From Halorubrum coriense DSM 10284 (GTDB lineage Archaea > Halobacteriota > Halobacteria > Halobacteriales > Haloferacaceae), in contig NZ_AOJL01000036.1 in the NCBI RefSeq assembly GCF_000337035.1, positions 7,574 to 71,573 of the forward strand: 64,000 bases of DNA, written 5' to 3'. Each line of letters begins with the position of its first letter. Positions within the stretch are counted from its first letter, which is position 1. Shown piece after piece: positions 37,298 through 58,524 of the stretch. Position numbers and translations under genes: made by a program. The notes under the pieces were generated by a model that searched no databases, had not been told where the DNA came from, and saw nothing but the letters and a program-made list of their open reading frames with translations.

Positions 37298-38836
37298 ATG
37301 ACACAGTATGTCGGTGCGATAGACCAGGGGACGACCGGAACCCGATTCATGGTGTTCGACCATGAGGGCCAGGTCGTCGCGAACGCCTACGAACAGCACG
37401 AACAGATCTATCCGAACCCGGGCTGGGTCGAACACGACCCGCTCGAGATCTGGGAGAACACCAAGCAGGTCGTCCTCGACGGCCTCGCCGACGCCGACCT
37501 CGAGGCGAGTCAGCTCGAGGCGCTCGGCATCACCAACCAGCGCGAGACGACGATCGTCTGGGACAAAGACTCCGGGAAGCCGGTCCACAACGCCCTCGTG
37601 TGGCAGGACCGGCGGACGACGGACCGCGTCGAGGAGATCCAGGAGGCCGGCAAGGTCGAGGAGATCCGCGAGAAGACCGGTTTGGAGTGCGACGCGTACT
37701 TCTCCGCGACAAAGACCGAGTGGATCCTCGACAACGCGGAGCCGCTCAAGATGCAGAGCTCCCGCGGCGGCGACCTCCGTGAGCGCGCTCGCGAGGGCGA
37801 GCTCATCATGGGGACCATCGACACGTGGCTCATCCACAACCTGACGGGGAACCACATCACGGACGTCACCAACGCGTCCCGGACGATGCTGTACAACATC
37901 CGGGAGATGGAGTGGGACGACGAGCTCCTCGAGGAGTTCGACGTGCCGAAGGAGATGGTGCCGGAGGTACGCCCCTCCTCCGACGAGGACTACTACGGCC
38001 ACACGGACGCCGACGGCTTCCTCGGCGAGGAGATCCCGGTCGCGGGCGCCCTCGGCGATCAGCAGGCTGCGCTGTTCGGCCAGACCTGCTTCGACAAGGG
38101 CGACGCGAAGAACACCTACGGAACCGGCGCGTTCTACCTGATGAACACCGGCGAAGAGGCCGTCGCGTCCGACAACGGCCTGCTCACGACGGTCGGGTTC
38201 CAGATGTCGGGCGAGCCGGTCCAGTACGCGCTCGAAGGGTCGATCTTCATCGCCGGCGCGGCGATCGAGTTCCTCGAGGACATCGACCTCATCAACAACG
38301 CGGCCCAGACCGCCGAACTCGCCCGGTCGGTCGACTCGACCGACGGGGTCTACATGGTGCCGGCGTTCACCGGGCTCGGTGCGCCGCACTGGGACGGTCG
38401 CGCCCGCGGGACCATCGTCGGGATGACCCGCGGAACGACCAAGGAGCACATCGTCCGCGCGACGCTCGAGAGCATCGCGTACCAGACCCGCGACCTCGCC
38501 GAGGCCATGGAGGCCGACTCCGGCGTCGAGATGACGAGCCTCCGGGTCGACGGCGGCGCGGTCAAGAACAACTTCCTCTGTCAGCTCCAGTCTGACATCA
38601 TCCAGACGGACATCGTCCGTCCGGAGGTCGACGAGACCACCGCGCTCGGCTCGGCGTACGCCGCCGGCCTCGCCGTCGGCTACTGGGACAACGTCGACGA
38701 ACTCCGCGACAACTGGCAGATCGATCGCGACTTCAGCCCCGAGAAGGACCAAGCGGAGGTAGACAAGCTCTACAGCCGCTGGGACGACGCGATCGATCGC
38801 TCGAAGAACTGGGCGCTGGACGAGGAGGACGAATAA
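37298..38836 (+). CDS. glpK: glycerol kinase (GlpK)
   Basis: A 512-residue FGGY-family kinase that phosphorylates glycerol with ATP, giving the substrate of GlpABC. Signatures are YVGAIDQGTTGTRFMVFDHEG (phosphate-binding loop), ITNQRETTIVWDKDSGKPVHNALVWQDRRT, LTGNHITDVTNASRTMLYNI and FTGLGAPHWDGRARGTIVGMTRGTTKEHI. It is preceded by a purine-rich ribosome-binding site, unusual among the mostly leaderless genes here. Glycerol from Dunaliella-type algae is a major carbon source for haloarchaea, and this kinase route is their main entry. Confidence 0.96.
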   Translation: MTQYVGAIDQGTTGTRFMVFDHEGQVVANAYEQHEQIYPNPGWVEHDPLEIWENTKQVVLDGLADADLEASQLEALGITNQRETTIVWDKDSGKPVHNALVWQDRRTTDRVEEIQEAGKVEEIREKTGLECDAYFSATKTEWILDNAEPLKMQSSRGGDLRERAREGELIMGTIDTWLIHNLTGNHITDVTNASRTMLYNIREMEWDDELLEEFDVPKEMVPEVRPSSDEDYYGHTDADGFLGEEIPVAGALGDQQAALFGQTCFDKGDAKNTYGTGAFYLMNTGEEAVASDNGLLTTVGFQMSGEPVQYALEGSIFIAGAAIEFLEDIDLINNAAQTAELARSVDSTDGVYMVPAFTGLGAPHWDGRARGTIVGMTRGTTKEHIVRATLESIAYQTRDLAEAMEADSGVEMTSLRVDGGAVKNNFLCQLQSDIIQTDIVRPEVDETTALGSAYAAGLAVGYWDNVDELRDNWQIDRDFSPEKDQAEVDKLYSRWDDAIDRSKNWALDEEDE

Positions 38837-54392: not shown

Positions 54393-54510
54393 AGTCGGTC
54401 GCTCCCGCTCTCCCCCTCCGCTTCCGTACCGCCTCGGTCCCGCCTTCCGTTCGCCACCGTTCCGTCCGCGTTCTCGCCGTCTGCTACCGTTCCGCACCTC
54501 GGCGACAGCG

Positions 54511-54535
54511 TTAAAACAGTGTACACACTTGTACA
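54511..54535 (+). promoter_or_regulatory. trp operon promoter with two TGTACA boxes
   Basis: TTAAAA (54511-54516) is the TATA box. TGTACA at 54520-54525 and again at 54530-54535 lie ten bases apart, start to start, one helical turn, between TATA and the expected start near 54540. TGTACA is the consensus of the TRP box bound by TrpY in Methanothermobacter, where it controls trp genes. The gene 33 bases on is trpD, so the site fits a tryptophan-responsive operator. Confidence 0.6.
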
Positions 54536-54567
54536 TCACAACGCGGAATACTACATCGGTGGACACA

Positions 54568-55617
54568 ATGAATCTCAACGACACGGTCGAGCGCGTGACG
54601 GACGGAGAGGATCTGACCGTAGAGGAGGCGCGCGAGGCCGCGCGGCTCGTCTTCGAGGACGCGACCGAGGCGCAGATCGGGGCGCTGCTGGCCGCGCTCC
54701 GGACGAAGGGCGAGACCGAGGCCGAGATCGCCGGCTTCGCGCAGGGGATGCGAGACGCGGCCCGCACGATCGAGCCCGACCGCGAGCCGCTCGTCGACAC
54801 CTGCGGCACCGGCGGCGACGACTACGACACGATCAACGTGTCGACGACCGCGGCCGTCGTCGCCGCGGGCGCGGGCGTGCCGATCGCCAAGCACGGCAAC
54901 TACTCCGTCTCCTCCTCCTCGGGGAGCGCGGACGTGCTGGAGGTCGCGGGGGCCGACGTCGAGGCCGAGCCGCCGGCCGTCGAGGAGGCGATCGAGCGGG
55001 ACGGGATCGGCTTCATGCTCGCGCCCGTCTTCCACCCGGCGATGAAGGCCGTCATCGGCCCGCGCAAGGAGCTCGGCATGCGGACCATCTTCAACGTCCT
55101 CGGCCCGCTCACCAACCCCGCCGGCGCGGACGCGCAGGTGCTCGGCGTGTACGACCCCGACCTCGTGCCGGTCATCGCGCGGTCGCTGGCGCACATGCCC
55201 GTCGAGCGCGCGCTCGTCGTCCACGGCGCGGGCATGGACGAGATCGGGATCCACGACGAGACGGTCGCGGCCGAGGTCGACGGCGACGACGTGACGGAGT
55301 TCACCATCTCGCCCGCGGACCTGGGCCTCGACCGCGCGCCGATCGAGGCGGTCGCGGGCGGCACGCCCGAGGAGAACGCCGCGGACCTGCGCGGGATCGT
55401 CGACGGCTCCGTGACGGGCGCGAAGCGCGACCTGATCCTCGCGAACGCGGGTGCCGCCGTCTACGTCGCCGGCGAGGCCGACACGCTCGCGGCCGGCGTC
55501 GAGCGCGCGGCCGCGGCGATCGACTCCGGCGCGGCCGCCGAGAAGTTCGCGGCGCTCTGCGGCGACGAGGCGCCCGCGGAGGGTGCGGGGGCGGCGACCG
55601 CGGAGGACGACGACTGA
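54568..55617 (+). CDS. trpD: anthranilate phosphoribosyltransferase (TrpD)
   Basis: A 349-residue enzyme that joins anthranilate to PRPP, the second step of tryptophan synthesis. PRPP/Mg motifs are CGTGGDDYDTINVSTTAAVV (about 72-91), KHGNYSVSSSSGSADVLE and the DE pair in GAGMDEIGIHDET. The anthranilate site includes FMLAPVFHPAMKAV and GPLTNPAGAD. In KHGN(R)SVSSKSG the usual Arg and Lys are Tyr and Ser here; this may be the haloarchaeal form but should be compared. The start at 54568 is preceded by GGTGG as a weak ribosome-binding site. First gene of trpDFEG. Confidence 0.94.
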   Translation: MNLNDTVERVTDGEDLTVEEAREAARLVFEDATEAQIGALLAALRTKGETEAEIAGFAQGMRDAARTIEPDREPLVDTCGTGGDDYDTINVSTTAAVVAAGAGVPIAKHGNYSVSSSSGSADVLEVAGADVEAEPPAVEEAIERDGIGFMLAPVFHPAMKAVIGPRKELGMRTIFNVLGPLTNPAGADAQVLGVYDPDLVPVIARSLAHMPVERALVVHGAGMDEIGIHDETVAAEVDGDDVTEFTISPADLGLDRAPIEAVAGGTPEENAADLRGIVDGSVTGAKRDLILANAGAAVYVAGEADTLAAGVERAAAAIDSGAAAEKFAALCGDEAPAEGAGAATAEDDD

Positions 55618-56261
55618 TGGCGCGGGTGAAGATCTGCGGGATCACCCGGGAGGCCGACCTGCGCGCCGCGGTCGACGCCGGCGCGGACGCGATCGGTGTG
55701 ATATCGGAGGTGCCGGTCGACTCCCCGCGCGAGGTCGACCCGGCCGAGGCGGCGGCACTGCTCGCCGACGTGCCCGCGTTCGTCACCGCGACGCTCGTGA
55801 CGATGCCCGACTCCGCCGAGCACGCGGTCGAACTCGTCCGCACGACCGCCCCCGACGCGATCCAGCTCCACGGCGAGTGGACCGCGGACGAACTCCGCTA
55901 CATCCGGGCGGAGACGGAGCGCAAGGTGCTGCTCACGGTCGACGCCGACGACCCGGCCCGAGCCGAGGAGTTCGACGGCGCGGTCGACGCGTTCGTCGTC
56001 GACTCCACCGACGACGACGGCGCGGGCGGCACCGGCGAGACGCACGACTGGCGCGCCACCGGTGACCTCGCCGCCCGCCTCACCACGCCGGTCGTGCTGG
56101 CGGGCGGGCTCACGGCCAACAACGTCGCCGAGGCGGTCCGCGTCGCCGACCCCTTCGCGGTCGACGTCGCCTCGGGCGTCGAGATCGAGGGCGGGCGGAA
56201 GGACCACAACGCCGTGGCCCGGTTCGTCGCCAACGCGGGCCGGGAGATGGAGCTGCTATGA
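55617..56261 (+). CDS. trpF: phosphoribosylanthranilate isomerase (TrpF)
   Basis: A 214-residue TIM-barrel enzyme for the Amadori rearrangement of PRA to CdRP. The catalytic Cys is in VKICGITREADLRAAV (about residue 7) and the catalytic Asp in LLTVDADDPARAEEF region; phosphate-binding loops are PVVLAGGLTANNVAEAV and VDVASGVEIEGGRKD. It is longer than many bacterial homologues by an acidic insert near residue 130 (DSTDDDGAGGTGETHDW). Overlaps trpD (TGATG) and trpE (ATGA). Confidence 0.94.
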   Translation: MARVKICGITREADLRAAVDAGADAIGVISEVPVDSPREVDPAEAAALLADVPAFVTATLVTMPDSAEHAVELVRTTAPDAIQLHGEWTADELRYIRAETERKVLLTVDADDPARAEEFDGAVDAFVVDSTDDDGAGGTGETHDWRATGDLAARLTTPVVLAGGLTANNVAEAVRVADPFAVDVASGVEIEGGRKDHNAVARFVANAGREMELL

Positions 56262-57934
56262 GCGACGCGGGCCCCCCGCTCGACCGCTCGAAGGCCGCGT
56301 TCGTCGACCTCGCGGCCGACGCCGGGAAGCCGGTGGTCGTCCGCGCGTCGGCCTCGCTCGACGTCGACGTCACCCCGCTCGGCGCGTACGCGACCCTCGT
56401 CGGCGACAGTCCCTACGGATTCCTGCTCGAATCCGGCGAGAAGGTCGCCTCCAGCGACCCCGACGGCGCGTTCACCTCTGGCGGGAAGGCGGACCGCCAC
56501 GCCCGCTACTCGTTCGTCGGCTACGACCCGGAAGCGATCGTCTCGGTCCATCCGGACCGCACCGAGGTGACCGAGCTCGGCCCGGCGGCCGAGTTCGTCG
56601 GCGACGGGAGCGACGGCTCCGCCGATGACCCGAAGGGCGCGACCGGTCTGGGCCCCGACGCCGGCGACGCGGTCGACCGCATCCGCGCCGCGTTCCCCGA
56701 CGTGCGCCTGCGCGGGTTCCCCGACACCGACCGGCAGATACTCTCGGGCGGGTTCGTCGGCTTCCTCGCGTACGAGGCGGTCTACGACCTCTGGCTGGAC
56801 GAGGTCGGCGTCGACCGCCCCGAGACCGAGTTCCCCGACGCCGAGTTCGCGCTCACGACCCGGACCGTCGTCTTCGACGAGAAGGAGGGGAGCGTCGAGC
56901 TCGTGTTCACGCCGGTGATCGGCGCGGACGACGACCCCGCCGCGGTGTACGACGATCTCGCCGCGGAGGCGGAGCGCGTCGCCGCCGAACTGCGCGCGGC
57001 CGCGCCGCCCGACCCCGACGGCGTGCGCGTCCGCGAGGAGTCCGCCGATCCGCGCGAGGAGTACGAGGAGGCCGTCCGGGCCGCCAAGCGGCACGTCCTC
57101 GACGGCGACATCTACCAGGGCGTGATCTCGCGCAGCCGCGAGCTCCGCGGCGAGGTCGACTCGCTCGGCCTGTACGCGGCCCTCCGCGACGTAAACCCCT
57201 CGCCGTACATGTACGTGTTGCGCCACGACGACCGGACCGTCGTCGGCGCGAGCCCGGAGACGCTCGTCTCAGTCCAGGGCGACCGCGTCGTCTCCAACCC
57301 GATCGCGGGCACCTGTCCGCGCGGGACCAGCCCGGTCGAGGACCGCCGGCTCGCGGGCGAGATGCTCGCCGACGGGAAGGAGCGCGCCGAGCACACGATG
57401 CTCGTCGACCTCGCGCGCAACGACGTGCGGCGCGTCTCGGAGCCCGGCTCCGTCCGCGTCGAGGAGTTCATGAACGTCCTGAAGTACAGCCACGTCCAAC
57501 ACATCGAGTCGACCGTGACCGGGACGCTCGCGGGCGACGCGGACGCCTTCGACGCGACGCGCGCGACGTTCCCGGCGGGGACGCTCACCGGCGCGCCGAA
57601 GGTGCGCGCGATGGAGATCATCGACGACCTCGAGACGACGCCGCGGGAGGCGTACGGCGGCGGCGTCGGCTACTACTCGTGGACCGGCGACGCCGACTTC
57701 GCGATCGTGATCCGCACCGCGACCCTCGACGAGTCCGGCGACGAGTCGGTCGTCGGCGTCCGGGCGGGGGCGGGGCTCGTCGCCGACTCCGACCCGGCCG
57801 CGGAGTACGAGGAGACGGAACAGAAGATGGACGGCGTGTTGACCGCGATCGACCGGATCCGCGAGGGCGACAAGAGCGATGCGGAAGGCGACGACGCCGA
57901 TCCGATCGCCACCGGCTCGGAGGCGGAGCGATGA
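56258..57934 (+). CDS. trpE: anthranilate synthase component I (TrpE)
   Basis: A 558-residue chorismate-using subunit. The feedback-inhibition LLES motif is present (YGFLLESGEK, about residue 50). The catalytic region carries GDIYQGVISRSRE, NPSPYMYVL, GASPETLVSV, PIAGTCPRGTSP, EHTMLVDLARNDVRRVSEPG, FPAGTLTGAPKVRAMEIIDDLE and YGGGVGYYSWTGDADFAIVIRT. A stretch at about 95-130 is a Gly/Asp-rich insert. The C-terminal 25 residues are an acidic tail. Works with TrpG, which overlaps it by four bases. Confidence 0.95.
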   Translation: MSDAGPPLDRSKAAFVDLAADAGKPVVVRASASLDVDVTPLGAYATLVGDSPYGFLLESGEKVASSDPDGAFTSGGKADRHARYSFVGYDPEAIVSVHPDRTEVTELGPAAEFVGDGSDGSADDPKGATGLGPDAGDAVDRIRAAFPDVRLRGFPDTDRQILSGGFVGFLAYEAVYDLWLDEVGVDRPETEFPDAEFALTTRTVVFDEKEGSVELVFTPVIGADDDPAAVYDDLAAEAERVAAELRAAAPPDPDGVRVREESADPREEYEEAVRAAKRHVLDGDIYQGVISRSRELRGEVDSLGLYAALRDVNPSPYMYVLRHDDRTVVGASPETLVSVQGDRVVSNPIAGTCPRGTSPVEDRRLAGEMLADGKERAEHTMLVDLARNDVRRVSEPGSVRVEEFMNVLKYSHVQHIESTVTGTLAGDADAFDATRATFPAGTLTGAPKVRAMEIIDDLETTPREAYGGGVGYYSWTGDADFAIVIRTATLDESGDESVVGVRAGAGLVADSDPAAEYEETEQKMDGVLTAIDRIREGDKSDAEGDDADPIATGSEAER

Positions 57935-58524
57935 ACGTCGTCGTCGTCGACAACTTCGACTCGTTCACCTACAACCTCGTCGAGTACGTCTCCGACCAGA
58001 CGATCGACGGCGAGCCGGTCGGCGTCGACGTGTTCAAGAACACCGCCTCGCTCGACGACGTCGAGGGCGCGGAGCCGGACGCGGTGATCATCAGTCCCGG
58101 GCCGGGCCACCCGAAGAACGACCGCGACGTGGGCGTGACGATGCCGGTGTTGCGTGACCTCTCGCCGACGGTGCCGACGCTGGGGGTGTGCCTCGGCTTG
58201 GAGGCCGCCGTCCACGAGTACGGCGGGACCGTCGGCCACGCGCCCGAACCGGTACACGGTAAGGCGTTCCCGGTCGACCACGACGGGAAGGGGGTGTTCC
58301 GCGGGCTCGAACAGGGGTTCCGGGCCGGCCGCTACCACTCGCTCGCGGCGACCCAGATTCCGGACGCGTTCGCGGTGTCGGCCACCACGGACCACGACGG
58401 CGAGTCGATCGCGATGGGGATCCGCCACCGCGAGCACCCGATCGAGGCGGTCCAGTTCCACCCGGAGAGCGTGCTCACCGGGTCGGGACACGACCTCATC
58501 CGGAACTTCCTCACCGGGGTCTGA
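57931..58524 (+). CDS. trpG: anthranilate synthase component II (TrpG), glutamine amidotransferase
   Basis: A 197-residue class I glutamine amidotransferase that feeds ammonia to TrpE. The nucleophile Cys is in LGVCLGLEAAVHEYGG (about residue 87), and the catalytic His-Glu in VQFHPESVLTG. The usual CLGHQ after the Cys is CLGLE here. The N-terminal VVVVDNFDSFTYNLVEYV and ISPGPGHP are canonical. The start is set by ATGA overlap with trpE; the stop is the end of the trpDFEG operon. Could also serve PabA in folate synthesis, but the operon favours tryptophan. Confidence 0.93.
   Translation: MNVVVVDNFDSFTYNLVEYVSDQTIDGEPVGVDVFKNTASLDDVEGAEPDAVIISPGPGHPKNDRDVGVTMPVLRDLSPTVPTLGVCLGLEAAVHEYGGTVGHAPEPVHGKAFPVDHDGKGVFRGLEQGFRAGRYHSLAATQIPDAFAVSATTDHDGESIAMGIRHREHPIEAVQFHPESVLTGSGHDLIRNFLTGV

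Follow-up and report, generated by a model that had tools for sequence, protein, structure and literature searches.

The trpDFEG operon of Halorubrum coriense DSM 10284 is preceded by two copies of the hexamer TGTACA, placed 10 bp apart (start to start) between the sequence TTAAAA and the trpD start codon ATG (54568-54570). The question raised by this locus is whether the two hexamers constitute an operator for the control of tryptophan synthesis and, if so, which protein binds to it. All coordinates refer to the window, namely the whole stretch of 64,000 nucleotides analysed here, the G+C content of which is 71%. A first-pass annotation, made from the letters of the window, had described the pair between the TATA box and the trpD start and had proposed a compact tandem operator of the TRP-box type, which may serve a TrpY-like regulator. 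The pair was confirmed in the sequence, and the operator reading was supported by the retention of the boxes and their spacing across Halobacteria, as described below.

TGTACA is the sequence of the TRP box of Methanothermobacter thermautotrophicus. In this organism, according to the accessible part of a published account, TrpY represses the trp operon via TRP boxes, and the trpY and trpE promoters overlap (PMC6737238). The same part of that account reports that the trp operon of T. kodakarensis is not controlled by the TrpY homologue of this species. Haloarchaeal homologues are said there to exist on a branch apart from the TrpY of M. thermautotrophicus but to be unexamined, with a function that, according to the authors, cannot be estimated (PMC6737238). 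For the haloarchaea, excerpts of an expression study on H. salinarum describe the induction of both trp operons without aromatic amino acids as a joint response (PMC4162585), and excerpts of a study on Har. hispanica call for additional factors at its TrmB-dependent trp operons (PMC10817205). No description of a haloarchaeal TRP box was found in the literature searched.

Chance expectation and conservation of the boxes at the trpD promoter

The features of the operon and its promoter are collected in Table 1. TrpF was given its top score by phosphoribosylanthranilate isomerase models, yet the score stays under their curated cut-offs.

Table 1. Coordinates of the trpDFEG genes and of the elements of the trpD promoter in the window
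Feature	Position	Strand	Evidence and conservation
BRE-like element GACAGCG	54504..54510	+	5' of the TATA-like box; consensus GACA-GC kept in 35 genera; putative function
TATA-like box TTAAAA	54511..54516	+	Sequence; consensus at this place CTTAAG in 35 genera
Operator box 1, offset 0, TGTACA	54520..54525	+	Exact; mean match 5.1/6 over 35 genera
Operator box 2, offset +10, TGTACA	54530..54535	+	Exact; mean match 5.6/6 over 35 genera
AACGCG in the +20 slot, not a box	54540..54545	+	AA-NCG kept in 35 genera
Weak operator box, offset +30, ACTACA	54550..54555	+	Mean match 4.5/6 over 35 genera
Shine-Dalgarno-like GGTGG	54558..54562	+	Overlaps the +40 box; GGTG kept 5' of the start codon; putative role
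Weak operator box, offset +40, TGGACA	54560..54565	+	Mean match 3.7/6 over 35 genera
trpD, anthranilate phosphoribosyltransferase	54568..55617	+	TIGR01245, 409.7 bits
trpF, phosphoribosylanthranilate isomerase	55617..56261	+	NCBIfam PRK01222 models, 164.6 bits, below the curated cut-off
trpE, anthranilate synthase component I	56258..57934	+	TIGR01820, 584.2 bits
trpG, anthranilate synthase component II	57931..58524	+	NF041322, 347.7 bits

As a single hexamer, TGTACA is unremarkable in the window, where it occurs four times, a number reached by 9 of 100 shuffles; the remaining two copies (at 37890 and 39510) are each solitary and unpaired. Two exact copies spaced by 10 bp were found at a single place in the 3.65-Mb genome, and the number of such pairs expected by chance was estimated at about 3e-5 in 64 kb and 0.002 in the genome.

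For the comparison of trpD upstream regions, trpD was detected in 390 of 391 Halobacteria genomes, and 90 promoters were taken, 30 from the host genus and 60 picked among the best-scoring listed matches in other genera, so that distant families are under-represented. All 90 promoters fit one ungapped consensus (at least 32 of 45 fixed letters), in which the TATA box CTTAAG is followed by TGTAC[GTA] and then, at +10 bp, by TGTACA. Both main boxes and their spacing were retained across Halobacteria, with at least five of six letters in both boxes for 80 of the 90 promoters and 30 of the 35 genera. A looser trpD pattern was matched in 114 of 116 Halobacteria genomes (G001 and G007 being those without a match), a tally to be taken as an upper bound because the reversed control of the same pattern is matched too.

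When each of the 35 genera is represented by a single promoter, peaks of the mean match to TGTACA are seen solely at offsets 0, +10, +30 and +40, and two weaker boxes were thereby recognized in the window, starting at 54550 and 54560, respectively. The most frequent form of the +30 box across the genera is CGTACA, and one clade of the host genus has TGTACA without a mismatch as its +40 box. The +20 slot is occupied by conserved AACGCG or AAGACG and, judged by its distance from the TATA box, would be the expected region of the transcription start, which is predicted near 54537-54545. The array is thus longer than the tandem pair of the first-pass annotation and keeps the same 10-bp register throughout.

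Drifted boxes were observed in a few lineages, namely in the L067 and L093-type trpD promoters and in genus g9 (L062, L065, L099). In genus g9 the boxes read, for example, TGCACA and CGTACA, and the scores of the TrpY family are lower as well, for which co-evolution is a possible explanation.

The trpCBA promoter and the TrpY-family protein of the genome

The second tryptophan operon of the host genome, trpCBA, is located on contig C42, and its promoter contains the array TGAACA-GATA-AGTACA-TTAG-TGTATA, directly 3' of the TATA box and 3 nt 5' of the trpC ATG. A set of 50 trpC promoters was obtained from 50 of the 59 genomes searched. In nearly all of them the boxes stand at 0, +10 and +20, and both outer boxes keep at least five of six letters in 48 of the 50 promoters. 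The exceptions are L158, one box of which is slightly weaker, and L134 (genome G021), with the array near the trpC-trpB junction. When the three-box pattern was searched in the whole host genome with up to three mismatches, the trpD and trpC promoters were the only places matched (reversed control 0), which leaves the promoter of the second tryptophan operon as the sole other place with a similar array. A similar three-box pattern with two mismatches was matched in 103 of 116 Halobacteria genomes; among the 30 haloarchaeal loci returned, 25 were trpC and five were not. For genome G021, the locus in this search is L206, where the three-box array lies near the trpC-trpB junction and not 5' of trpC.

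The first-pass annotation had noted that a TrpY-like regulator was lacking in the window, and tblastn of the window gave none. The host genome has one TrpY-family protein, the gene of which is found outside the window, at locus L038 on contig C51 (TrpY_fam, NCBIfam NF053754; 231.8 bits versus a cut-off of 180). Among 391 Halobacteria genomes, 390 contain the family, 389 of them with a score above the cut-off and nearly all with one match only; in the phylum, it was present in 281 of the 294 genomes sampled. Since TrpY is nearly universal in the phylum, its phylogenetic profile is not discriminating, and the co-occurrence of TrpY and boxes is weak evidence. The identity of the host protein with family members from other classes is 43-55% (49% with that of Methanolobus), and a DRRVVD segment is near-invariant in the family. 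Its score for Pfam ACT (26.2 bits) lies just below the cut-off of 27, and a C-terminal ACT domain was assigned on the basis of the modelled ACT fold of the 49%-identical Methanolobus relative (Z 9.4). The N-terminus of the Methanolobus model shows an HTH-like arrangement, for which the fold search returned no match at E ≤ 0.001.

In the host genome and at 19 other loci of the phylum, no trp gene lay closer than about 5 kb to trpY, and paired boxes 5' of trpY were found in none of 30 haloarchaeal loci and none of 77 other loci. The idea that trpY is autoregulated by way of such boxes was accordingly rejected. Three genomes deviate in the search for the two genes: G381 (88% complete) has trpD and no TrpY match, and G388 (81% complete) has TrpY and no trpD match, for both of which an assembly gap may be responsible; in G270, the TrpY match is split into two parts below the cut-off, which may point to a disrupted gene or to an error in the sequence.

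Proposed tryptophan-dependent repression and other explanations

The two TGTACA boxes of the window probably form the half of the trpDFEG tryptophan operator that is nearer to the promoter, with the single TrpY of the genome as the most likely binder and tryptophan-dependent repression as the mode of control. As proposed, trpDFEG would be served by several TGTACA-type boxes that follow the TATA box, precede the start codon, are spaced by multiples of 10 bp and share one helical face, and the same type of array would control trpCBA and, in relatives, further aromatic amino-acid genes. Plentiful tryptophan would be sensed by the ACT domain of TrpY, and the tryptophan-loaded protein, in the form of dimers each placed on one palindromic box, would bind cooperatively to adjacent boxes and block the start site; scarce tryptophan would release both trp operons. 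Repression is the natural reading because a protein on the boxes would cover the start site and block the polymerase. The 10-bp steps would bring all boxes onto one helical face, which fits the cooperative binding of TrpY dimers, and the ACT domain fits tryptophan as the ligand. Sequence comparison shows the boxes, their spacing and conservation, their use at both trp operons and the presence of the regulator gene. The location of trpY apart from the trp genes and its own promoter without paired boxes, both unlike the arrangement in M. thermautotrophicus, count against TrpY as the binder, as do the T. kodakarensis homologue without effect on trp, the separate branch of the haloarchaeal homologues and the 14 non-haloarchaeal exact pairs, out of 34, that lack such a gene directly downstream. 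The reading of the boxes as an operator is much better supported than the naming of TrpY, a candidate, as its regulator.

If the array is a real tryptophan operator, it might be bound by another regulator, for example LrpA2, a protein of the Lrp type, or a homologue of TrmB comparable to HAH_0923 from Har. hispanica, which we consider rather unlikely. In the accessible parts of the sources, LrpA2, and not TrpY, is proposed as the regulator of trp in H. salinarum, where it is induced 14.9-fold without aromatic amino acids (PMC4162585), and the trp operons of Har. hispanica are TrmB-dependent with no TrmB site nearby and with HAH_0923 as the candidate (PMC10817205). The published support for these two proteins is, however, expression evidence only. 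In favour of TrpY instead, TGTACA is the hexamer of the TRP box itself, and the array accompanies the trp genes across the phylum, nearly all sampled members of which have TrpY. It has also to be asked whether the boxes are coding sequence, that is, the start of a leader peptide or regulatory uORF (ATGTAC...) by which tryptophan would be sensed during translation. A short frame does run from box 1 towards trpD in several species (with a GTG start in the window), but it meets a stop at codon 3 in several genera (e.g. L055, L064, L071, L076, L079, L092) or soon after, begins upstream of the expected transcription start and contains no run of tryptophan codons in the promoters inspected; moreover, the boxes are spaced in 10-bp steps and not in codons, and arrays also stand at genes with other leaders. 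Due to the early stops and the position of the boxes 5' of the expected start, this explanation was rejected as very improbable.

Nor does coincidence, by chance or by composition within an A+T-rich promoter, offer an explanation that deserves credit. The number of hits alone is not beyond chance, as the three-box pattern with three mismatches gave about 1.4 strand hits per simulated genome and the looser trpD pattern is also matched by reversed controls; the weight was thus placed on the location and conservation of the hits and not on their count. On the other side, the two three-box places of the genome are the two trp promoters, the spacing of the boxes is retained in 35 genera, trp genes of further families within the phylum have such arrays as well, and the trpY promoters, used as a control, stay at background (mean 6.4/12 versus 6.4 in random stretches of the window). 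By location and conservation in the sequences compared, the chance reading is already contradicted.

The TrpY operator proposed here resembles the system of M. thermautotrophicus in the combination of TGTACA-type boxes at a trp promoter with a TrpY-family regulator in the genome. It appears to differ in the strict 10-bp arrays at two separate trp operons, and it differs in that the haloarchaeal trpY is unlinked to the trp genes and without boxes of its own. Tar (TK0271) of T. kodakarensis is likewise described, in the accessible text, as a single archaeal regulator of aromatic amino-acid operons; it is, however, an activator of another kind, in an organism whose TrpY homologue does not act on trp (PMC6737238). 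For H. salinarum and Haloarcula hispanica, joint regulation was measured for the same operons, trpCBA and trpDFEG, and the portions of the two reports consulted identify no cis-element or direct binder (PMC4162585, PMC10817205). In Haloferax, the trpCBA promoter is called "not tightly regulated" in the accessible part of a 2026 paper citing earlier work (PMC13147458), which speaks against a strong switch there.

To what is described of haloarchaeal tryptophan control, the present analysis adds a cis-element and a candidate regulator found in nearly every haloarchaeon. The geometry of the operator can be tested through shifts of the boxes by half a helical turn, and promoters under the control of tryptophan, for use in haloarchaeal genetics, might be built on the arrays.

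Arrays in other Halobacteriota

Beyond the scope of the first-pass annotation, the putative regulon reaches other Halobacteriota. The exact pair was present in 7 of 36 other genomes of the phylum and in 43 of 100 genomes of one methanogen family. Directly downstream of the 34 non-haloarchaeal exact pairs inspected, trpD, trpC, trpB2 or the gene of ADH synthase, the first enzyme of the archaeal aromatic pathway, was found in 20 cases, and no tryptophan or aromatic gene stood immediately downstream in 14; L326, with an ADH-synthase match about 350 nt from the pair, was excluded from the 20. The three-box search gave matches in 45 of 80 genomes of other families, together with some matches of the reversed control. 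From the strongest rows of this search, 20 arrays were picked by hand (not at random), and 12 of them stand 5' of trpC, trpE, trpD or trpB2. The other eight all belong to family f19, with phenylacetate-CoA-ligase-like genes (three), ECF transporter ATPase genes (two), genes of an unannotated membrane protein (two) and a lactate-permease-like gene (one) downstream. At L382, five boxes follow each other in exact 10-bp steps.

In M. thermautotrophicus, trpB2 is under the control of TrpY, and in methanogen relatives trpB2 is among the genes with arrays. The best reading of these data is a TrpY/TRP-box regulon across the phylum with phased multi-box operators. On balance, we favour the view that such a regulon, with two to five boxes in strict 10-bp steps, was ancestral to Halobacteriota and that an ECF-type transporter, a membrane protein (perhaps a tryptophan carrier) and an aryl-CoA ligase were added to it in f19. 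It would be a clean case of a regulator and its operator preserved across an archaeal phylum, and TrpY would then be among the few archaeal transcription factors with a binding code traceable from methanogens to haloarchaea.

Several single loci of these searches are recorded here. The membrane proteins of f19 (L382:2072-2803 and L389:2059-2604), without a Pfam or NCBIfam match, are encoded behind four to five TGTACA-type boxes, and the ECF transporter ATPase genes of the same genomes (L384 and L386) have arrays too; the membrane protein may provide substrate binding in an ECF transporter for tryptophan. The phenylacetate-CoA-ligase-like genes of f19 behind TGTACA-type arrays lie in L380, L383 and L387, and a neighbouring gene in L383 resembles, by eye, that of an indolepyruvate oxidoreductase beta subunit, which suggests that the salvage of aromatic acids is under the same control in this family. 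In members of a methanogen family, ADH synthase genes start at a TGTACA pair at L240, L338 and L339, with a TIGR01949 match in L240.
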